DNA of 64,000 nucleotides, taken from contig JADGOE010000006.1 in the NCBI GenBank assembly GCA_017883135.1, positions 1 to 64,000 on the forward strand. Direction: 5' to 3'. The notes below the pieces were generated by a model. It saw nothing but the letters and a program-made list of their open reading frames with translations, searched no databases and was not told where the DNA came from. This DNA is from Acidimicrobiales bacterium (GTDB taxonomy: Bacteria; Actinomycetota; Acidimicrobiia; Acidimicrobiales; RAAP-2). Below, in pieces: positions 11,551 through 27,304 of this stretch. A program made the translations under genes and the position numbers. Numbering within the stretch: position 1 is the stretch's first letter; each line of letters begins with the position of its first letter.

Positions 11551-14500
11551 TTACCGGAAATCTCTCGAGGAAGGGACCGGGCCCAGTTCGAGGGGCTCGA
11601 ATCGCTCGGCCACCAAGGTCATCGACCCTTCCGAGCGCTCGATCCGGCCTCGCACCAGAAGTGCCGGGCACGACCGGGCCACCGCCCTCCAGCGGACCCA
11701 GGCCCCACGGGAGCAGACGATGTTGACCATGCCGGTCTCGTCCTCGAGGTTCAAGAAGACGGCGCCATGGGCGCTCTCGGGTTGTTGACGGTGGGTGACC
11801 ACGCCCCCGACGGTGATCCGGTCCCCGGTCGACCTCGACGCCAATCCACCGGCGGGGAGCACTCCTCGCCGGTGCAGGTCGTTCCGGGCCAACTCCATGG
11901 CCGTGGTGTCCGGTGCCATTCCGAGCGACCACAGGTCGTCGGATACCTCCTCCCACCGGGTGGGGACCGGGAGGGGTGGCGGGTCCGATCCGGTGACCAC
12001 GCCCGGCAGCCGATCCGGAGTGGCCTGTGAGGCTGCCCCCGCCCCCCACACCAGCGACCGCCGGCTGGGGCCCCGGATCGGTCGGTCGGTCTCCGGCAGA
12101 CCGTCACGTCGGGCCGCATGCCCGGGGGTGTCAACGGGGACCAGGCCGTCCAGCGCCCCGGCGGTGGCCAGCGCCTCCAGCTGGGTCCGGGTGACGCCGG
12201 CCCGGCGCACCAGATCCTCCATGTCCGACCACGGGCGTCCTTCCGCAATTCGTGCCGCGGTCTCACCTCCGATGCCACGCACCGAGGTCAGTCCCAGCCG
12301 GACAGCGGCCCGTCCGGTTCTGTCGTCGGTACCATCGCCCTCCCCGGGCTCTCCCTCGACCGGCTCGAGGCCGGCGGTGGCCTGGCCGGCGTTCACATCG
12401 GGGCGCCGGATGGTCACCCCGTGCCGCTTGGCGTCGGCCACCAGGCTCTGGGGAGACCAGAACCCCATGGGCTGGGCCCTCAACAGCCCGGCGGTGAACG
12501 CGGCGGGATAGTGCACCTTGCACCAGGCGGTGGAGTACACCAGGTGGGCGAAGGCCACCGAGTGGCTCTCGGGGAAGCCGAAGTTGGCGAAGGCGGCCAG
12601 TGCCGCATACACCTGCTCGGACACGCTGGTCGGGACCTGTCGGCCGGCCATCCCTGCGAACAGTCGATCGCGGAGCCGGGCCATCCGCTCGCCCGACCGC
12701 TTGGCACTCATCGCCTGGCGCAGTTCGTCCGCCTCGGTCGGGGTGAACCCGGCGACATCGATGGCGATCTGCATTAGCTGCTCCTGGAAGAGGGGCACCC
12801 CGAGGGTCCGCTCCAGGGCAGGTTGCAGCAGCGGGTGCAGGTAGGTGACCGGCTCGGTCCCGTTGCGCCGCCGGATGTAGGGATGGACGGCGTTCCCCTG
12901 GATCGGGCCGGGCCGGATGAGGGCGACCTCGATGGCCAGGTCGTAGAAGCACCGGGGCTGGACGCGGGGGAGGGTGTTCATCTGGGCCCGCGACTCCACC
13001 TGGAACACCCCCACGGTGTCGGCGCGGCACAGCAGGTCGTACACCTCGGGCTCCTGGTCGAGCCGGGCCAGGTCGATCTCGACGTGGTGGAACCCGCGCA
13101 CCAGGTCGACCATGTGGTGCAGCGCGGTCAGCATGCCCAGGCCGAGGAGGTCGAATTTGACCAGCCCGGCCGCGGCACAGTCGTCCTTGTCCCACTGGAG
13201 AACACTGCGACCGGGCATTCGGCCCCACTCCACCGGGCACACCTCTACCACCGGCCGGTCGCAGATGACCATGCCTCCGGAGTGGATGCCGAGGTGGCGG
13301 GGGAAGTCGAGCAACTCGCCGGCCAGGTTCTGCACCAACGGGGGGAGGTCGCTCCTCTCGCACAACGGCTCACCCCGCTCGACCGACTTCGACCAGGTGT
13401 CGACCTCCTCGGCGGTGTGCCCGAGCGCCTTGCCCAAGTCGCGCAGCGCCGAACGGGACCGGTAGGTGATGACGTTGGCCACTTGGGCGGCGTGCAGCCG
13501 GCCGTAGCGCTCGTAGACGTACTGGATGACCTCTTCCCGTCGTCCCGACTCGATATCGATATCGATATCCGGTGGCCCGTCGCGGGCCGGGGAGAGGAAT
13601 CGCTCGAACAGCAGTCCCAGGGAGACCGCGTCGACGTTGGTGATCCCCAGGGCGTAACAGACCGCGGAGGTGGCCGCCGAGCCCCGGCCCTGGCAGAAGA
13701 TGTCCTGGCGCCGGCAGAACACGACGATGTCCCAGACGGTGAGGAAGTAGCCGGCGAACCCGAGCTCGCCGATGACGGTGAGCTCATGGTCGAGCTGGGC
13801 CCATGCCCCCCGTACCCGCTCGGTCTCTCGAGCACCGTACCGCTCGGTCCCCCCCCGGCGGACCAGCTCGGTCAGCCAGGTCTGTTCGGTGTGCCCGTCC
13901 GGTACCGGAAAGTCGGGGAGGCGCGGTGCCACCAGGCGCAGGTCGAACGCGCAGTGGGCGGCGAGGTCGGCCGCCCGTTCGACCACACCGGGCCACCGGG
14001 CGAAACGACGCCGTTGTTCGGCCTCCCCGCGCAGGCAGGCGGTGGCCGACGAGGGGAGCCACCCTTCGAGGTCCTCGAGGGTCCGTCGGGCCCGGACCGC
14101 GGCCAGCGCTGTGGCCAGGGGGAAGCGGGCCGGGGTGCCGTAGTGCACGTTGTTGGTGGCCACCGGGGCCACCCCCCGCTCGGTGGCCAGCAGGGCCAGG
14201 GCATCGTTACGGGTGGCGTCGATCGGATTGCCGTGGTCCCACAGTTCGACTGCCAGGTGGTCGCGGCCGAAGCACCCGATCAGATGGTCGAGTGCCCGGG
14301 CCGCGGCAGTCGGGCCGCCGGTGGTGAGGGCGGTGGCCAGCGCCCCCTTGCGACACCCGGTGAGGATCTGCCAGTGGCCGCCATGACGATCGGCCAGGTT
14401 GTCGAGGGTGATGATCGGGTTCCCCTTCTCGCCGCCTGCCAGGTGGGCCTCGGCGATGGCCCGGCTGAGGCGGGCGTACCCCTCGGGGTCCCGGGCCAGC

Positions 14501-14772
14501 ACGACCAGGTGGGTGCCGGCCGGATCCGGCATGCCGGTACGGGCAGGGGAGACGCCCACCCCGGAGATGGTGAGCTCGGTGCCGAACACGGTGGGCAGGC
14601 CGAAGGCCCGGGCCGCCTCGGCGAAGCGGACCGCCCCGTAGAGGCCGTTGTGGTCGGTCAGGGCGAGGGCGGAGAGGCCGAGCCGGACTGCAACGGCGGC
14701 CAACTCCTCGGGATGGCTGGCACCGTCGAGGAAGGAGAAGTTGGAGTGGGCATGGAGCTCGGCGTAGGCCAT
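11551..14772 (-). CDS. dnaE2: Error-prone DNA polymerase III alpha subunit DnaE2 (ImuC)
   Basis: C-family polymerase of 1073 residues, the usual size for DnaE2/ImuC and shorter than replicative DnaE. It carries out damage-induced mutagenic synthesis with ImuA' and ImuB. The N-terminal PHP domain starts AELHAHSNFSFLDGASHP and continues with ALALTDHNGLYGAVRF. The palm metal-binding motif is PPDIDIDIES near residue 400, with a further Asp in VLQWDKDD. Fingers and helix-hairpin-helix segments follow (LTSVRGIGGETAARIAEG), then an OB-fold that includes ITVGGVVTHRQQ. It is the last gene of a three-gene minus-strand operon: imuB ends 16 bp upstream and imuA' heads the unit under a LexA box. Confidence 0.93.
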   Translation of the reverse strand: MAYAELHAHSNFSFLDGASHPEELAAVAVRLGLSALALTDHNGLYGAVRFAEAARAFGLPTVFGTELTISGVGVSPARTGMPDPAGTHLVVLARDPEGYARLSRAIAEAHLAGGEKGNPIITLDNLADRHGGHWQILTGCRKGALATALTTGGPTAAARALDHLIGCFGRDHLAVELWDHGNPIDATRNDALALLATERGVAPVATNNVHYGTPARFPLATALAAVRARRTLEDLEGWLPSSATACLRGEAEQRRRFARWPGVVERAADLAAHCAFDLRLVAPRLPDFPVPDGHTEQTWLTELVRRGGTERYGARETERVRGAWAQLDHELTVIGELGFAGYFLTVWDIVVFCRRQDIFCQGRGSAATSAVCYALGITNVDAVSLGLLFERFLSPARDGPPDIDIDIESGRREEVIQYVYERYGRLHAAQVANVITYRSRSALRDLGKALGHTAEEVDTWSKSVERGEPLCERSDLPPLVQNLAGELLDFPRHLGIHSGGMVICDRPVVEVCPVEWGRMPGRSVLQWDKDDCAAAGLVKFDLLGLGMLTALHHMVDLVRGFHHVEIDLARLDQEPEVYDLLCRADTVGVFQVESRAQMNTLPRVQPRCFYDLAIEVALIRPGPIQGNAVHPYIRRRNGTEPVTYLHPLLQPALERTLGVPLFQEQLMQIAIDVAGFTPTEADELRQAMSAKRSGERMARLRDRLFAGMAGRQVPTSVSEQVYAALAAFANFGFPESHSVAFAHLVYSTAWCKVHYPAAFTAGLLRAQPMGFWSPQSLVADAKRHGVTIRRPDVNAGQATAGLEPVEGEPGEGDGTDDRTGRAAVRLGLTSVRGIGGETAARIAEGRPWSDMEDLVRRAGVTRTQLEALATAGALDGLVPVDTPGHAARRDGLPETDRPIRGPSRRSLVWGAGAASQATPDRLPGVVTGSDPPPLPVPTRWEEVSDDLWSLGMAPDTTAMELARNDLHRRGVLPAGGLASRSTGDRITVGGVVTHRQQPESAHGAVFLNLEDETGMVNIVCSRGAWVRWRAVARSCPALLVRGRIERSEGSMTLVAERFEPLELGPVPSSRDFR

Positions 14773-14788
14773 GGCGTGGGCGTCCGAC

Positions 14789-15892
14789 CTATCCGTAGGT
14801 CGCTTCGACCCACCACCAGCCCCGCTCGACCAGCAACAGGTAGGCCTCGGCGCCGGCCACCGCCTGCATGCGCGCGCTCCTCCGGCGGGATCGCGACCAC
14901 CACCGTTCGTCCGACGGCCACGGGCCGGCCCAGGCAGTCACCTCTGCCCAGGGGCTCTTCTCCACCGAGAGGCGGCCGGGGGCGGTGGTGAGCAGGCCTC
15001 GGCCGGAGACCCTCACCGGCTCCCCACGCGCGTCGGTCAGTTCGGCACGGAGCGGGGCGGGGTGCACGACCACCGGTGCCGGTGGGGGGATCTGGCCGGG
15101 CCACGGGGCACCGAGGGTGATGTCCACATGGCGCTCCTGGGCGTTCCAAGTGACGAAACGCGCCCGCTGGGCCGGCCCCCGACCTCCTTGGAGGCGGGCG
15201 GTGACCACGCCGTCGGGGCCGAGCAGGTCCTGCACGGCCGCCAGCGATCGAGCGGCTCGGACATCGGCGTCGCTCACCCCACCCCAGAACCCGGGCTCGT
15301 CGACCACTGTGGCTCGGCGCGGGGAGCCGCCGGGCCGGCCGCTCCTGCGCTGCTCGTCGACACGTCGACCGGCAAGCGGTTGGCGCAGTTCGGCCAGTTC
15401 GCCGCTCCGTCCTCCGGCCACCATGTGGCACGTGACGCCGTCGGCTCCGAATCGGCCGAGCACATGGGACTCGGGAAGGGCGGCGAACTCGCCGAGGGTG
15501 CGGATGCCCAGCCGGGTCAACAGCTCGGCCAGCTCGGGGTTCCCGAGGATGCCCACCGGAAGCGGGGCCAGGAAGTCGGGGGTCCCTCCGGATGGGATGA
15601 CCAGGCCACGGTGGGCGGCAAGGAGGCCGGCGAACAGCCCGTCGGCCATGCCGACCTCGACCGGGGTGATGTCGGAGGCTGCATCGAGGATCAATCGGAC
15701 CAGCGTGCCCTCGCCGCCGAAGTAGCGAGCCGGCCCACGGGCGGGAAGCGAGCAGATACCGGGCCGCACGGTGGCCACCCACGGGCAGTACGCCTCGACG
15801 GCATCGACCACCTTGGCGAAGGACCGGAGGGTCGCTCCGTCCTCGTCCTCGTCGAGGAGATCCGGGCAGTGCACAACGAGAAGACGGTCCAT
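14789..15892 (-). CDS. imuB: ImuB-like Y-family polymerase accessory protein
   Basis: A 367-residue protein resembling the inactive Y-family polymerase ImuB, which links the sliding clamp to DnaE2. The N-terminus (MDRLLVVHCPDLLDEDEDGA) and the segment ARYFGGEGTLVRLI match the polymerase-like fold; RLGIRTLGEFAALPESHVLGRFG is the helix-hairpin-helix region. The catalytic acidic pair of active Y polymerases is not evident, as expected for ImuB. It is shorter than the roughly 500-residue mycobacterial protein; the C-terminus is a basic region ending RGWWWVEATYG. It lies between imuA' (1 bp gap) and dnaE2 (16 bp gap), which supports the assignment. Confidence 0.85.
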   Translation of the reverse strand: MDRLLVVHCPDLLDEDEDGATLRSFAKVVDAVEAYCPWVATVRPGICSLPARGPARYFGGEGTLVRLILDAASDITPVEVGMADGLFAGLLAAHRGLVIPSGGTPDFLAPLPVGILGNPELAELLTRLGIRTLGEFAALPESHVLGRFGADGVTCHMVAGGRSGELAELRQPLAGRRVDEQRRSGRPGGSPRRATVVDEPGFWGGVSDADVRAARSLAAVQDLLGPDGVVTARLQGGRGPAQRARFVTWNAQERHVDITLGAPWPGQIPPPAPVVVHPAPLRAELTDARGEPVRVSGRGLLTTAPGRLSVEKSPWAEVTAWAGPWPSDERWWSRSRRRSARMQAVAGAEAYLLLVERGWWWVEATYG

Positions 15893-15893
15893 G

Positions 15894-16679
15894 TCAGCGC
15901 ATGGCCGTGTTGCCGGTGACGTCCGCCGTGTTGCCGGTGACGTCCGCCACTGCCCCGGTCGTCGAGGGCATCCACAGGCGATGGTGTCTGGGACGGACTG
16001 CCGACCGGCGGCCCGTTGCCATCACCGTCATCCGGCGCCCGGACAGGTACCCCTCGCCGGCGCCGACCCCGTCCCAGTGGATGCCGCTGACGCTCAGACG
16101 CAGATCGGGAGGTTCGGGCCACCCGGCTCGTCCCGGCACGACCACCAATACCGACCGGCGCTCCCTGGCTCTGGCCACCAACCTGCGGGCCATGGCAGGG
16201 CGGGGAGGGAAGGGTGGGCAGAGCATCACGAGATCGACGCCCCCGATCAACGTGGCGGTGACTTCGGCCCATGCTGCCCCCGGCCGGGGGACCACCGCCG
16301 ATCGGGCGAGGTCGAGCCCGAGGTCGTGGGCGGCGACGGCGCCAAGGCCAGGAAGGCCGACCAACGCGCACCACGATCCGGTCCCCGAAGCTGCGGCCAG
16401 TAGGGCCAGGGCCATGCTGATTCCGCCGCCGGTCCCATCCGGGCCGGTGCCGGCCAGGCCGGTGACGACGAGCGTGCTCCCGCGGCGCAGGCCACCGTCG
16501 GGAAACAGGTCGGCGAGGGCCGGAAGCAGCGGGAGGAGGCGGGTCTGGCTCGACGAAACGGGCCGCGTGCGCTCGGCCAGCAGCGCCAGGGATTTCGCGG
16601 TCGGCTCGGGGTCCGAGCCCCCGGCCAGTCCCTTGGCCGAAGAGGCGTCACCCTGTTGATCGGCCAGTGATACGAACAT
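15894..16679 (-). CDS. imuA': ImuA'-like RecA-fold protein of the SOS mutasome
   Basis: First gene of the imuA'-imuB-dnaE2 operon. The 261-residue product has a degenerate RecA/SulA-like fold: DLFPDGGLRRGSTLVVTGLA occupies the place of a Walker A strand but lacks the G-K-T/S lysine. ALALLAAASGTGSWCALVGL and DLVMLCPPFPPRPAMARRLV follow. In mycobacteria ImuA' interacts with ImuB and is needed for induced mutagenesis. I chose ATG 16679 because a TAGTGT box (16692-16687) lies exactly seven bases upstream, so the mRNA would be leaderless; ATG 16700 is an alternative. A perfect LexA box covers the transcription start and first codons. The C-terminus contains two copies of a seven-residue unit. Confidence 0.83.
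   Translation of the reverse strand: MFVSLADQQGDASSAKGLAGGSDPEPTAKSLALLAERTRPVSSSQTRLLPLLPALADLFPDGGLRRGSTLVVTGLAGTGPDGTGGGISMALALLAAASGTGSWCALVGLPGLGAVAAHDLGLDLARSAVVPRPGAAWAEVTATLIGGVDLVMLCPPFPPRPAMARRLVARARERRSVLVVVPGRAGWPEPPDLRLSVSGIHWDGVGAGEGYLSGRRMTVMATGRRSAVRPRHHRLWMPSTTGAVADVTGNTADVTGNTAMR
15904..15945. repeat. Two tandem copies of a 21-bp unit inside imuA'
   Basis: Two identical 21-bp units lie side by side, at 15904-15924 and 15925-15945. In the imuA' frame they encode T-A-D-V-T-G-N twice near the C-terminus, so the duplication keeps the frame. It is consistent with replication slippage. Confidence 0.9.
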
Positions 16680-16686
16680 ATGTTCG
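16673..16686. promoter_or_regulatory. LexA (SOS) box over the imuA' start
   Basis: The 14-mer CGAACATATGTTCG is a perfect palindrome and a perfect match to the Gram-positive/actinobacterial LexA consensus CGAACRNRYGTTYG. It begins immediately downstream of the TAGTGT -10 box and includes the proposed imuA' start codon (ATG, 16679-16677). LexA would block the leaderless promoter at +1 until DNA damage removes it, inducing imuA'-imuB-dnaE2. It may also affect the divergent transcript beginning near 16781. Confidence 0.92.
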
Positions 16687-16768
16687 ACACTATCGTCCAT
16701 GGAGCGAGCCTGCCCAGTCGTCCTCGAGGCACCCCCGGAGGTCCACCCAGTGCGCACGAACTGCTCGC

Positions 16769-16774
16769 TAACAT
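16769..16774 (+). promoter_or_regulatory. Candidate -10 box (TAACAT) of a divergent short transcript
   Basis: TAACAT fits the TANNNT form used by other promoters in this window and lies 15 bases before a very strong Shine-Dalgarno sequence, placing the transcription start near 16781-16783. No -35 consensus is obvious. Confidence 0.4.
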
Positions 16775-16804
16775 GTGGGCTACCAGAGGAAGGAGGTGGT
16801 CCAA

Positions 16805-16849
16805 CTGAGCAGTCAACGTTTCGGGACCCTGGAGGTGGCTGGCCGCTGA
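16805..16849 (+). other. Micro-ORF behind a near-perfect Shine-Dalgarno, followed in frame by a second short frame
   Basis: AGGAGG (16791-16796) is eight bases before a CTG that opens a 14-codon frame reading (M)SSQRFGTLEVAGR and ending at TGA 16847-16849. A GTG at 16796 is also in frame but overlaps the Shine-Dalgarno. The frame continues after the TGA as GGSLYHLANPSQTPTG to a second TGA. The composition looks protein-like, but no family is recognised. It could be a regulatory leader peptide, a small protein, or a gene split by the TGA. Confidence 0.3.
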
Positions 16850-16969
16850 GGCGGCTCGCTGTACCACCTGGCGAATCCCAGCCAGACACCCACTGGGTGA
16901 CCTAGCCGGACCCAGGTCCCATCCGGCGCCGCACGGGAACCCCAGTGCACACAGTCAGCAAACTCGTAC

Positions 16970-17001
16970 CTGTAGGGCGTCTCCTCGGAGGCGCCCTACA
17001 G
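16970..17001. terminator. Strong hairpin, probable bidirectional terminator
   Basis: CTGTAGGGCG (16970-16979) pairs perfectly with CGCCCTACAG (16992-17001). A T-G wobble and CTC/GAG extend the stem to 14 bp around a CTCG loop. There is no T-tract on either side, as is common for actinobacterial terminators. It would end the short plus-strand transcript and could also stop the minus-strand operon ending at 17125. Confidence 0.7.
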
Positions 17002-17124: not shown

Positions 17125-17685
17125 CTACACGCCCTCCCACAGGCCGACAGGGGCTTGGCCCACCGGGTAGTGGCCCGGCTGCCTCCCACTGCCCGCAGTC
17201 CGCTCGATGCGTTTCTGCATGCCGGGGCTCAATGCACCGGCGGTGATCATCTCGATGTAGGTGGAAGTGGCGTTGCCGACGTCGAAGAAGTCGCGCTGCC
17301 AGCTCCACTCGAAATTGCCCGCATAGCGGAACCAGCTGCCTCCCAGCCCCGCAATCTCGTAGTGGCTTCCGTCCGGCCTGGTGGCATCGGCCACCTGCTT
17401 CCACAGTCCGAGGATCTCGCCCTGGGTGTCGTCGATGAGTATCCGTTGATAGGGATAGCTCCATCCGCCGAGGCCCTCCATCTCGTAGCCGACGGCGTAC
17501 TCGCGGATCTCCTCCCGACCGATGGCCATGAACTCGTCGTTGGGCCCGACGTTCCATCCGTAGGTGGCATCCTCGGTGTACAGGTCGGCCAGGGGGAGCC
17601 AGTCGAGCTGCTCCTCGCAACGTTGGTTGAGGGCCAACCAACGTTGCATCATCTCTTCGAGCTCACTGCGTGGGAACGACGGCAT
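17125..17685 (-). CDS. NTF2/SnoaL-like protein
   Basis: A 186-residue cystatin-like alpha+beta barrel of the NTF2 superfamily, which includes ketosteroid isomerases and dehydratases. Seen: a helical start (SELEEMMQRWLALNQRCEE), DWLPLADLYTEDATYGWNVG typical of the cone opening, FMAIGREEIREYAVG and GSWFRYAGNFEWSWQRDFFD. The exact reaction is unknown. It is the last gene of the cyp51 operon, and its ATG 17685 lies inside the end of the ferredoxin gene (23-bp overlap). In M. tuberculosis a steroid-isomerase-like NTF2 protein (Rv0760c) is also close to cyp51, which suggests a steroid- or terpenoid-type substrate. Confidence 0.8.
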   Translation of the reverse strand: MPSFPRSELEEMMQRWLALNQRCEEQLDWLPLADLYTEDATYGWNVGPNDEFMAIGREEIREYAVGYEMEGLGGWSYPYQRILIDDTQGEILGLWKQVADATRPDGSHYEIAGLGGSWFRYAGNFEWSWQRDFFDVGNATSTYIEMITAGALSPGMQKRIERTAGSGRQPGHYPVGQAPVGLWEGV

Positions 17686-17887
17686 GGGTCTGGTCCTCCT
17701 CGGTGATGCGTAGTGCGGACGTGGGGCAGTACCGGACCGCTGCCTCCACAGCGGAACGCAGTTCCTCGTTGGGCGTCTCCTCGAGGATGGTCACGGTTCC
17801 ATTGCTCGCCAACTCGAACACGGCCGGCGCCTCGGATTCGCAAACGCCGTGACCCTGGCACAGATCGAGGTCGACTGCGACCCGCAT
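17663..17887 (-). CDS. 3Fe-4S ferredoxin, electron donor to CYP51
   Basis: A 74-residue ferredoxin of the single-cluster type used by bacterial P450s. Cysteines lie in DLCQGHGVCESEAP (C-x5-C) and YCPTSAL (C-P). The usual second cysteine of a 4Fe-4S motif is replaced (Gly-His), giving a 3Fe-4S site. It would pass electrons from a reductase to the upstream P450s. The start ATG overlaps the cyp51 stop (TGATG), indicating coupled translation. M. tuberculosis has the same arrangement (Rv0764c cyp51, Rv0763c ferredoxin). Acidic surface residues (EETPNEELR) fit a redox partner. Confidence 0.9.
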   Translation of the reverse strand: MRVAVDLDLCQGHGVCESEAPAVFELASNGTVTILEETPNEELRSAVEAAVRYCPTSALRITEEDQTHAVVPTQ

Positions 17888-19286
17888 CAGGCCGGCGTCA
17901 CTTCCGGCGCCGCTTCCGGTGTGGTCGTGGCCTTCCGCCGGTACCGGACCACACAGGGCTGCTGCAGCTGGATCACCATCTTCGAGTGGTCGTTGCGGTA
18001 TGTCTCCGGCGGTTGGGCAAGCTCGAACTCCCAGTGCAGGAGCAGCACCGAAAAGATGGCCTTCAGCTGCATCATGGCGAATGCCGCACCGACGCACCGG
18101 TGGCGGCCGGCGCCGAAGGGTATCCACGTCCACGGATTGGCGCGGTCCTCTTCGCGTGGCGCGAGATAGCGGACCGGTCGGAACTCGTCGGCATCGGGGA
18201 AGTCCTCCACGATGCGGTTGGAGACCGACGGACTGGCGCCGACCATCTGGCCGGCCCGGATCGCGAAGCCGTCGACGTCGAGGTCCTCCTTGGCCACTCG
18301 CAGCAGCAAGATGAGCGGGGGATGGAGCCGCAGCGCCTCCTTGATGGCGGACTCCAGGCGGGGCATCTCGCGCAGCGCCTGGTAGCTGACGTCGGCCTCT
18401 CCGGCGTAGAGCTCATCGAGCTCACGGTGCACCGCCTCGAACTCTTCGGGATGCCGGAGCAGTTCGATCAGCGTCCATGCCGCCGTGCCCGACGTCGTGT
18501 GATGGCCGGCGAACATCATCGAGATGAACATCCCGGTGATCTCGTCGGCCAAAAACCGAGGCAACCCATCCTCGTCCTTGATCGACATCAATACGTCGAG
18601 CAGGTCGCGCTCGTCACCCTCGGGAGGGATTGGGTCCTGCGGCGGTCCATGATCGCTTCGACCAGTTGGACCAGCTCGACCCGGGCTGCATCACGGCGCC
18701 GGAAGCTCTCGATCGGGGCGTAGGGATCCACGAAGGCGATGGCATCGGTCCCCTGCTCGAGGTCGTGGTAGAGCTCGGCGAACCGCTTGTCGAGCTCGTT
18801 GCGGAACCGCGTCCCGATCAGGCAGGCCGAGGAGGTGTAGATGGTCAGCTCGGCGAGCCATTCGAGCAGGTCGATCTCCCCGTCATCGTCCCAGGCCGCC
18901 ACCATCTGTTCCACCTCGCGGGCGATGGTGGCGGCGTGCCCCCGCATGAACTTGTCCCGGAGGGCCTGGTTGTGGAGCATCTCGCGGCGGCGTTCGGGAG
19001 GTGCGTCGAAGACGACCCCTTCCCCGAACACCGGGGTCATGAAGGGGTAGGCCTCGGCCTGGTCGAGGATCTCCTCCGGCGTCCGGAAGAAGATCTCGTT
19101 GGCGCTTGCGCCGGTCAGGAGGACCACGTCCCGATCGGCCAGTCGGAAGGTTCCGACGTCGCCGCACTCGTCACGGACCCGATTGAGGAGAGCGATCGGG
19201 TCGACCCGCAGCTCTTCGAGATGCCCGTTCTCTCCCGCTCCACCCGATACCCGTGGTGGTTCCCGTTGCTCCACGGTGGTGCTCAT
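17887..19286 (-). pseudogene. cyp51: Cytochrome P450 CYP51 (sterol 14-alpha-demethylase type), frameshifted
   Basis: Two overlapping frames together make one CYP51 of about 466 residues. The upstream frame ends ...QLVEAIMDRRRTQ and the downstream frame resumes PPEGDERDLLDVLMSIKDE. Restoring one base between about 18625 and 18645 joins them. The downstream half has the I-helix AGHHTTSGT, the ExxR helix KEALRLHPP and the haem loop FGAGRHRCVGAAFA, followed by QPPETYRNDHSKMVIQLQQP. This is very close to my memory of M. tuberculosis CYP51. CYP51 removes the 14-alpha-methyl of sterols; its role in bacteria lacking sterol synthesis is unclear. It is coupled to the ferredoxin (TGATG) and overlaps the SDR stop. 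The lesion may be real or a consensus error. Confidence 0.88.
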
Positions 19287-20083
19287 TGGCTCTCCTCATG
19301 TCCGGTTTGGATCTGGACCGGTGCTTCCGGCTGCAGCTCGATGACGGTGGCGTGGGTGCCGCGGGGAAGGGTTACGGCAGCCACGATGGCCTGGGCCACC
19401 CCGGCAGGACGCATGAAGTTCGAGTGGCGGGCGAATCCCCACGCGGCCCACTGCTCGATCACGTCGGCGGTGACGTCGGGATCCCAATCCATCCCCATGC
19501 CGGTGAGCGTCGGACCGGGCCGCACGATGGAGGCCCGCACACCGGAGCCCTCGAGCTCCATCTGCAGCGATCGCACATAGCCCTCGAGCCCCCACTTCGA
19601 CGTGACGTACGCAGCCATGCCGGGCCTGGGCCGTTCGGCCACGTCGGAGGTGACGAACACGATGTCGCCCCGCCGACGATCGATCATGGCCGGGGCCAGC
19701 GCGCGGATCAACCGGTGGGTTCCGGTGATGTTGACGTCGAGCACCCCGTCGAACACCTCCGCACTGGTGTCCAGCACCGAGCCGGCAAGGTTCTGGGCGG
19801 CATTGGACACCAGTATCTCGACGCTACCGAGGGTTTCGAAGGCCGACCGGGCGAACTGCTCCACCGAGTCGCCGTCAGCCAGGTCGAGGTGGATGGCGAA
19901 GGCGTCACCGCCTTCCTCGCGGACGCCTCGTGCCACTTCCTCGCATACCGACACCCGTCGGGCGCCGAGGACCACCGGGTGCCCCTGGGCAGCAAGGGCC
20001 AGGGCCGTGGCCCGCCCGATGCCCGATGAGGCGCCGGTGACGACGGCCGGCCGTCGCACGGGGTTGGGCTCGAAGCGGGCCAT
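19283..20083 (-). CDS. Short-chain dehydrogenase/reductase
   Basis: Classical SDR of 266 residues. The cofactor motif TGASSGIG lies at residues 17-24, NAAQNLAG stands for the N-N-A-G loop, and the catalytic pair is Y-V-T-S-K (AAYVTSKWG) with an upstream Ser in FVTSDVAE. GARR after the second strand suggests NADP(H). It would oxidise an alcohol or reduce a ketone made by the neighbouring P450s. Its start overlaps the stop of the upstream P450 (TGATG) and its end overlaps the cyp51 start, so the operon is tightly coupled. Position and type match Rv0765c of M. tuberculosis. Confidence 0.9.
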   Translation of the reverse strand: MARFEPNPVRRPAVVTGASSGIGRATALALAAQGHPVVLGARRVSVCEEVARGVREEGGDAFAIHLDLADGDSVEQFARSAFETLGSVEILVSNAAQNLAGSVLDTSAEVFDGVLDVNITGTHRLIRALAPAMIDRRRGDIVFVTSDVAERPRPGMAAYVTSKWGLEGYVRSLQMELEGSGVRASIVRPGPTLTGMGMDWDPDVTADVIEQWAAWGFARHSNFMRPAGVAQAIVAAVTLPRGTHATVIELQPEAPVQIQTGHEESQ

Positions 20084-21288
20084 CAGCGGAGCACCACCGA
20101 GGTCGGGAGTGCTGCGAGCCCCCGGACGTTGATCGAGTGGACGCGCTCGATGCCATCGGGGTCGACGTCGTACGAGGCCACTCCCTTCACCAGCTCGGCC
20201 AGCCCGATGCGCGCCTCCATCCTGGCCAGCGGGGCGCCCATGCAGAAGTGGCGGCCGTTGCCGAAACTGACCAGGCGCGAGGTGTCCCTGTCGAGGTCGT
20301 AGCGATCAGGGTCGGGGAAGACTGTTTCGTCGCGGTTGGCCGAGCCGACGAGGAGGAGCACGCGGTCCCCCTCGGGGATGGTGCAACCGTGCAGCTCGAG
20401 CGGCACGCGTGCCACCCGCAGCAGCATCTGGCTCGAGGCGTCGAAGCGAAGGGTCTCCTCCACCCAGTCGGTCACCCGGGTCACCTCGGCCATCGGCTTG
20501 GCCAGCTCGTCGGGGTTGCGCCAGCCCCAGTATCAGGCGTTGCCGAGGAGCTTGGTGGTCGTCTCGTTTCCGGCCACCACCATCAGGAAGAGAAACGCGA
20601 CGATCTCCTCGTCGGTGAGCTTGTCCCCGTCGATTTCGGCCTTGAGTAGCGCCGAGGTGAGGTCATCGCGCGGCGCGGCGCGCCGGTCGTCCACCATTCC
20701 CTGGTAGTAACCGACCAAGGTCAGCGCGGCGTCCATGCCGGCTTGGGGAACGTCGAACAGGCCGTCCTCCCGGTGCACGACCAGATTGGCCATCCGGCGC
20801 AGCTCGGCCCGATCGACCGGTGGCACGCCGACCAGTTCCGAGATGACGTCCATGGGCAGCTTGCCGGCGAAGTCGGCGATGAAGTCGAACGACCCCTGTT
20901 CGAGGGCGGGCTCGAGGTGCTCGATGGCGATTTCGCGGATCCGATCCTCCATCTGGGCGACCTTCGAGGGAGTGAACCCCTTACCCACCAGCGAGCGCAT
21001 GCGGGTGTGGCGCGGTGGGTCGAGCGCGAGGAACGACATCACCTTGTGAGCGTCCGGCCCGAAGGCGCTTGGGTCGAGAGAGACGCCGTGGGAGTTGGAG
21101 AACGCATCCACGTTGCGGAATGCGGCCAGCACGTCCTGGTGCCGGGACAGCGCCCAGAAGTCGAATTCGTCGTTGCGATAGACAGGCGCCTCGGACCGGA
21201 GCCGGGCGTAGACCGGGTAGGGGTCCTCGTGGATCTCGTAGGCGTACGGGCTGTAGGTGACCGGTCCACCGGCGGATACACCGGTCAT
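20083..21288 (-). pseudogene. Cytochrome P450 (CYP123-like) interrupted by an in-frame TGA
   Basis: One continuous frame of 401 codons apart from a TGA at 20535-20533. It reads ...NETTTKLLGNA, stop, YWGWRNPDELAKPMA, so the stop lies just after the oxygen-binding I-helix (FLMVVAGNETTT). Both halves are otherwise normal: N-terminal YSPYAYEIHEDPYPVYARL, FLALDPPRHTRMRSLVGKGF, the ExxR helix VEETLRFD and the haem loop FGNGRHFCMGAPLARMEA. A TGG-to-TGA change would explain it. By position it corresponds to CYP123 (Rv0766c) beside CYP51 in M. tuberculosis, whose substrate is unknown. ATG 21288 overlaps the TetR stop. Confidence 0.85.
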
Positions 21289-26539: not shown

Positions 26540-27304
26540 ATGACTGAACACCGCGTCGATGTCGAGGACGGTGCGGGGGTCAGGCTGGTGGCCTTCAACC
26601 GGCCCGAGGTCCGCAACGCCTTCGACCTGGCCATGTACCGGGCGGTGAGCGAGGCCCTTGCCGGCGCGGCGGCCGACGACGCCGTCCATGCTGTCGTGCT
26701 GACCGGCAGGGGCCAGGCGTTCACGTCGGGCCAGGATCTGCGTGAGATGGCCGCCATCGCCACCGGCGAAATCGGTGCCGACGCCGGCTCGGGGTTCCAA
26801 GGGCTTCTCGACGTGGTCGTCGACTTCGACAAGCCCCTGCTGGCCGCGGTCCACGGGGTCGGCATGGGCCTGGGCTGCACGCTGCTCGGTCATGTGGACC
26901 TGGTCCTGATGGACCAGGATGCCCGGCTGCGCGCCCCATTTGCCGAAATGGGCGTGCCCCCCGAAGCCGCCAGCAGTTGGCTGCTGCCGGCTCGGATGGG
27001 ATGGCAGCGAGCGGCCGCTGCACTGCTGGCCTCGGAGTGGATCGGTGCCGACCAGGCAGTGGAGTCCGGATTGGCACTGCGGACCTGCCCGTCCGGCACC
27101 GTGTTGGAGGAGACGATGGCACTCGCCCGAAGGATCGCCTCCTTTCCACCTCATGCCACCCGCGAGATCAAGCGCCTGATGATGGTGGCCCGCCGACCCG
27201 AAATTGCCGCAGCCCGGGCACGGGAGGAAGCGGCCTTTGCGGCTCTCTTCGCGGACCCGCGGACCAACCCGGGCACGCAGCTGACCGCCGGCCTCGGGCG
27301 CTGA
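26540..27304 (+). CDS. Enoyl-CoA hydratase/isomerase family protein
   Basis: Crotonase-fold enzyme of 254 residues acting on acyl-CoA thioesters. The oxyanion-hole loops are TGRGQAFTSGQDL and AAVHGVGMGLGCTLLGHVD. A catalytic-type glutamate is in FAEMGVPPEAASSW. The trimerisation helix region is PPHATREIKRLMMVARRP. I chose ATG 26540 (MTEHRVDVEDG), because the longer frame to 26501 starts inside a short duplicated stretch. The M. tuberculosis locus, as I recall it, lacks this gene; its presence suggests a beta-oxidation step after ring or side-chain cleavage. Confidence 0.9.
   Translation: MTEHRVDVEDGAGVRLVAFNRPEVRNAFDLAMYRAVSEALAGAAADDAVHAVVLTGRGQAFTSGQDLREMAAIATGEIGADAGSGFQGLLDVVVDFDKPLLAAVHGVGMGLGCTLLGHVDLVLMDQDARLRAPFAEMGVPPEAASSWLLPARMGWQRAAAALLASEWIGADQAVESGLALRTCPSGTVLEETMALARRIASFPPHATREIKRLMMVARRPEIAAARAREEAAFAALFADPRTNPGTQLTAGLGR

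Follow-up and report, generated by a model that had tools for sequence, protein, structure and literature searches.

Positions 16782 to 17001 (forward strand) of the window, i.e., of the whole stretch of 64,000 nucleotides that was analysed, carry a single-copy, apparently free-standing sRNA gene that, judged by covariance models, almost certainly belongs to the Ms_IGR-5 RNA family as a divergent Acidimicrobiia branch. Its 5' domain combines an extended Shine-Dalgarno (SD) sequence, which by base complementarity can pair with essentially the whole 16S tail, with a micro-ORF that is very probably translated. We favour, with some reserve, the view that the RNA is a translation-gated switch, a stand-alone sRNA whose 5' domain would serve as a ribosome-docking module. 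New here are the 16S-tail complement, the micro-ORF, the fold formed by P1, P2 and a pseudoknot, and a second SD-like element; the parts of the locus are arranged as follows.

16673–16686 (no strand assigned): LexA-type box CGAACATATGTTCG of the divergent imuA', outside the sRNA in most relatives
16769–16774 (forward strand): predicted −10 element TAACAT, the TANNNT spacing being kept among homologues
about 16781/16782 (forward strand): predicted transcription start site of the sRNA
16782–17001 (forward strand): sRNA gene, in all likelihood a divergent Ms_IGR-5 homologue (RF02471 match at 16782–16922 and our own model R1)
16783–16786 (forward strand): P1 5' strand CCAG, partner 16829–16832, from covariation
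16788–16802 (forward strand): extended SD GGAAGGAGGTGGTCC, complementary to the 16S 3' tail
16805–16849 (forward strand): micro-ORF with CTG start, 14 codons and TGA stop; start and stop are kept in homologues
16823–16828 (forward strand): pseudoknot 5' strand GGGACC, within the ORF, from covariation
16829–16832 (forward strand): P1 3' strand CUGG, from covariation
16831–16837 (forward strand): internal SD-like element GGAGGTG, from invariant columns and a spacing of 8 nt from GGAGG to the last sense codon
16834–16842 (forward strand): P2 5' strand GGTGGCTGG, partner 16882–16890, from double changes
16844–16847 (forward strand): P3 5' strand CGCU, extending into the stop codon, partner 16870–16873, from double changes
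16870–16873 (forward strand): P3 3' strand GGCG, from double changes
16882–16890 (forward strand): P2 3' strand CCAGACACC, from double changes
16892–16946 (forward strand): P5 outer stem, ACTGG 16892–16896 with CCAGT 16942–16946, from double changes
16906–16926 (forward strand): P4 hairpin, CCGGA with TCCGG, displaying the pseudoknot loop, from double changes
16915–16920 (forward strand): pseudoknot 3' strand GGTCCC, in the P4 loop, from covariation
16970–17001 (forward strand): probable terminator hairpin without a U-tail, from arm complementarity and a similar stem in many relatives

The sRNA is predicted to be expressed at this locus; its homologues are transcribed. Of 191 distinct homologues, 138 have a TANNNT motif at −22/−23 from GGAGG, and this fixed distance places the predicted RNA start at the first base of P1; a −35 consensus was not found in front of the sRNA at this locus. 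At the other end of the gene, the terminator-like stem recognised in the initial annotation is present as a hairpin with arms of 15 nt that are 93% complementary, but it lacks a T-run; a resembling stem with changed base pairs is found 3' of the RNA in many relatives.

When the window was scanned against Rfam at the gathering threshold, no match was obtained; a permissive scan matched RF02471 (Ms_IGR-5) to positions 16782–16922 over the full model (1–184) with 39.1 bits (E 1.2e-7), a score that stays below the gathering cut-off of this family (45 bits). Four relatives pass this cut-off (L015 with 53.1, L006 with 47.9, L022 with 47.8 and L028 with 45.6 bits). R1, a covariance model built in this analysis from 40 mostly Acidimicrobiia sequences, gives the window copy, which is itself within the training set, a score of 185 bits; furthermore, it recovers the high-scoring RF02471 loci L031–L042, none of which was used for training, at E values between 6e-18 and 2e-7, and the loci recovered in this way reach up to 176 bits against RF02471. 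The motif order, the ORF frame and the helices of L031–L042 are the same as those of the window branch, in keeping with common descent. Hence, the recovery of the top RF02471 loci and their identical layout led us to treat the window copy as a divergent branch of Ms_IGR-5. It shares with the family the 5' ACxxx-AGGAGGUGGUCC motif, GGAC, GAGGUGGCUG, GGCGAAUCC and the 3' hairpin with the GUCC loop, as well as its single-copy state; expressed homologues are known from Mycobacterium and Streptomyces. It departs from the family in that its score stays below the cut-off, its P5 stem is shorter, its CTG start follows at a spacing of 8 nt, and its terminator hairpin is a separate one.

In a DNA search, 42 of 61 genomes (its own and those of relatives) gave a match, a degree of conservation far beyond chance, and the core from about 16782 to 16936, in contrast to its flanks, is common to genomes beyond the family. 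RF02471 is present in 58 of the 246 Actinomycetota genomes scanned, 24 of them above the cut-off, while R1 detects the RNA in 146 of 248 genomes of the order and in 97 of 298 genomes of the Actinomycetota, nearly always as one copy per genome; named carriers include Mycobacterium, Nocardioides, Cellulomonas, Salinispora, Rhodococcus and Candidatus Microthrix. In the R1 scan of the order, the RNA was absent from the streamlined genomes of its own family and is therefore dispensable. Transcripts of Ms_IGR-5 homologues have been reported from S. lividans (PMC8079986), S. avermitilis (PMC8780764) and M. smegmatis (PMC10454040), and in M. abscessus and M. smegmatis the homologue bears ribosome-protected reads, the authors themselves cautioning that ribosome footprints are common on ncRNAs (PMC4974804). 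The literature searched, in which few subscription papers were covered, contained no function for Ms_IGR-5 or its M. tuberculosis counterpart. Ms_IGR-5 is widely conserved (mycobacteria, Streptomyces, Nocardioides, Cellulomonas and others), and the comparison presented here gives it a testable identity, that of a translated RNA in which translation as such, rather than the peptide, looks selected, with a corrected secondary structure that includes a pseudoknot. Should this be confirmed, Ms_IGR-5 would be an sRNA built around 30S engagement, in organisms for which the control of translation under dormancy and stress is still an open matter.

The extreme SD sequence that first drew attention to this stretch is borne out. 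No site in the window other than AAGGAGGTGGTCC at 16790–16802 matches AAGGAGGTGRTCC exactly (10 matches versus 3.5 expected when up to two mismatches are allowed), and the duplex calculated for the site and the 16S tail GGAUCACCUCCUUUCU (−29.4 kcal/mol) ranks first among 31,990 20-mers sampled from both strands, with 14–16 nt of the site being complementary to the tail. Because a pattern search did not recover the 16S end of the window's own assembly, we took the tail from relatives, where it was read in 7 of the 12 genomes searched, one of them of the same genus. At alignment columns 19 and 21, the variants seen (G to A and C to U, respectively) preserve the pairing with the 16S rRNA. The next-best matches to the 16S tail, at 27129 and 27317 (reverse strand), run antisense to ORFs that are likely to be coding and were put down to chance.

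The frame of 14 codons behind this SD, running from CTG at 16805 to CGC at 16846 and ending with TGA at 16847–16849, is likewise real: among the 191 distinct sequences that contain the SD as well as GAGGTG (both motifs were required by the script), none lacks the start or the stop, and the length of the ORF ranges between 10 and 17 codons. Start codons are ATG, GTG or TTG, or else CTG, ATC, ATT, ACG or ATA, and in many Acidimicrobiia copies CTG, ATC or ATT is the sole available start. Canonical starts are mostly positioned 9–12 nt from GGAGG, and where a sequence has no canonical start, the near-cognate codons counted lie at 8–9 nt in 78 of 83 cases; a Fisher test of near-cognate starts against spacing was partly circular, as the spacing had been pre-restricted to 8–9 nt, and the unrestricted count was used instead. 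Within the ORF, the GAGGTG columns of the internal SD-like element are invariant in 92 of 92 aligned sequences, a figure that has to be read with the choice of loci by similarity in mind, which biases the set towards an invariant SD and GAGGUG. The distance from this element to the last sense codon is 8 nt (7 nt in a clade that uses another frame) and is the same as that between the first SD and the CTG start.

The RNA fold was assessed by covariation in an alignment of 93 homologues. P1 joins the 5' end of the RNA to the part of the ORF just 5' of GAGGTG; it is paired in 98.9% of the cells, with 95 double-change cells, and its covariation score was reached by none of 500 shuffles. The pseudoknot between GGGACC in the ORF and GGUCCC in the P4 loop, which was absent from the model used for aligning, is paired in 93.2% of the cells, with 27 double-change cells and again 0 of 500 shuffles reaching its score. 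Double changes occur in five of the nine pairs of P2, in two of the four pairs of P3 (97% paired), and in all five pairs of both P4 (96% paired) and P5 (82% paired); these four helices were part of the alignment model, and the alignment consequently leans towards them. Two further helices were rejected: a stem GGUCC:GGACC that would hide the SD shows no double change, nor does helix 1 of the Rfam consensus (the SD with GCUGCC), of which one pair is broken in 69 of 91 sequences. The alignment thus supports P1, P2 and the pseudoknot and leaves helix 1 of the Rfam structure unsupported, and it looks as if this helix is at fault rather than the family membership of the window copy. Family, ORF, helices and 16S complementarity are, within the reach of sequence comparison, established.

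From this arrangement, we infer that a 30S subunit would be captured through an SD duplex of 14–16 bp and would then initiate; the ribosome would translate the short dummy frame and might be slowed or held at the stop codon by the second SD, provided that this element indeed engages the ribosome. Loading of the ribosome would have to melt P1, the pseudoknot and P2, so that the folded and the ribosome-held forms of the RNA should be mutually exclusive, and the same should apply to P2 and a ribosome contact at the second SD, since GAGGUG also lies within the P2 5' strand. RNA stability, or the exposure of 3' segments, might then track the translation-initiation capacity of the cell, with the peptide as a by-product; we infer this output step because neither a base-pairing target nor a conserved neighbour of the sRNA was found. 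Among the three ideas considered in the initial annotation (a small-protein gene, a ribosome-sequestering RNA and a recoded ORF), a ribosome-binding RNA is the one best supported. A more far-reaching proposal, which we offer tentatively and would not expect to hold in full, is a phylum-wide ribosome-parking sRNA that selects mature 30S subunits by whole-tail pairing, has them read a dummy ORF of 10–17 codons with an irrelevant peptide, and uses a second, correctly spaced SD to detain them at the stop; initiation-competent ribosomes would in this way be sensed or kept in reserve.

A conventional trans-acting antisense sRNA, the exposed loops of which would pair with mRNAs while the micro-ORF and its SD provide ribosome coating and protection or a secondary role of the dual-function type, is a possibility that we regard with doubt. 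The conserved promoter element, the single copy, the structured 3' half and the annotation of the family as sRNA all agree with it, as does the finding that an all-against-all blastp of flanking ORFs, many clusters of which are frame-shadow ORFs, revealed no phylum-wide conserved neighbour gene; however, the strongest conservation falls on the SD, the start and stop codons and the 5' fold, and the GUCC loop is occupied by the internal pseudoknot.

That the locus is a small-protein gene, with a peptide of 10–17 amino acids ending in EVA(A/G)R as its product, is unlikely. Start, stop and frame are indeed kept in 191/191 sequences, and in the main clade the C-terminal EVA(A/G)R hardly varies, but the N-terminal residues vary freely and the codons of the constant residues belong to P1, P2 and the internal SD. 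Moreover, a clade that includes L069, L075, L080 and L240–L246 reads the invariant GGAGGUGG in another frame, with start and stop still kept, and the same RNA motif there yields SGGGSS in place of EVAAR; by eye, this clade appears to be without the pseudoknot. With a whole clade using a different frame, a conserved small protein is not supported, and the retention of start and stop in that frame suggests that it is the act of translation, and not the peptide, that is selected.

A purely non-coding structured RNA, in which the ORF would be an accident of the fixed spacing between RNA motifs, is in our view very unlikely. The stop codon does sit at a fixed distance from GAGGTG (the triplet five codons past the GAGGTG start is a stop in 82 of 85 distinct homologues: TAG 48, TGA 25, TAA 9) and could be a structural element, and folding energy, taken alone, places this region as a whole only mildly ahead of shuffles (z −1.7). 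Yet TAA, TAG or TGA is used in all 191 sequences and TGG was never seen, and canonical starts located 5–14 nt after GGAGG are in frame in 42 of the 85 homologues, with the other two frames accounting for 1 and 0. A second collection of 108 sequences, drawn from named genomes that partly overlap those of the first set, has the stop in 108/108 and an in-frame start in 108/108, the latter being the cleaner test since the first T of the stop was already prescribed by the search pattern; the spacers in this set measure 31–44 nt and fall into all three classes modulo 3, and still an in-frame start is present, mostly 8–12 nt after GGAGG.

Dual-function sRNAs are typified by SgrS/SgrT. In common with this type and with peptide-coding sRNAs, in which a small ORF is carried by an sRNA (PMC5521070), the window RNA has a small ORF whose start and stop are conserved; in contrast to them, its peptide is not conserved across clades, one of which has another frame and another peptide, and the ORF is a strand of the RNA's own fold. 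Extended SD sequences joined to non-canonical start codons are known from S. aureus, where those of infC (AUA), cvfC1 (AUU) and ccpN (AUA) are read as strongly regulated initiation sites (PMC13009471). These sites resemble the window copy in the very long pairing of SD and anti-SD and in the near-cognate start, but they head protein genes or operons, whereas the frame studied here has 10–17 codons and ends inside a structured sRNA. Leader-peptide attenuators also possess a short ORF that overlaps alternative helices and a downstream hairpin; the window RNA differs from them in lacking a regulated downstream gene and in standing alone in varied contexts. The initial remark that this is not an ordinary attenuator is therefore upheld, as no conserved regulated gene follows immediately on the strand of the sRNA and the next gene is convergent.

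The sRNA is divergent from ImuA' (NCBIfam NF058630, 146 bits), the divergence from an SOS operon having been recognised at the outset, and a LexA-type box lies about 80 nt from the predicted −10 element; the suspected link to LexA is not supported, with such a box being found at most 400 nt upstream of the RNA in just 8 of 88 loci, so that the promoter carries no conserved LexA box. A cis-acting leader or an SOS-controlled element of the imuA'-imuB-dnaE2 region, or a recoded ORF, is mostly refuted already and scarcely credible, since, despite the divergent ImuA' and the nearby box, neighbour genes differ from clade to clade, the next downstream gene is convergent, and the 16-codon in-frame continuation, which does exist in the window (16850–16897, TGA 16898–16900), lies behind a codon that is TAA, TAG or TGA in 191/191 sequences and is not conserved, its frame being broken by indels of 1–2 nt just past the stop in five relatives (L013, L015, L024, L025 and L026).

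The mutagenesis cluster ImuA'-(ImuB-like)-DnaE2 occupies 11551–16700 (reverse strand), with ImuA' and DnaE2 backed by NCBIfam; its middle gene (14789–15892) matches no Pfam or NCBIfam family at 1e-3 and owes its ImuB label to its position only. The convergent gene 3' of the sRNA (17125–17685, reverse strand) appears SnoaL-like by eye and has no Pfam or NCBIfam family at 1e-3. Beyond it, two abutting ORFs (17887–18591 and 18588–19286, reverse strand) look by eye like halves of one cytochrome P450 in different frames, for which a frameshift or an assembly error within 17887–19286 is possible, and another pair (20083–20493 and 20533–21288, reverse strand) resembles, again by eye, a further split P450. 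In one clade (L052, L056, L063 and L071–L073), the sRNA is situated near a gene that by eye resembles that of an NAD-dependent DNA ligase.
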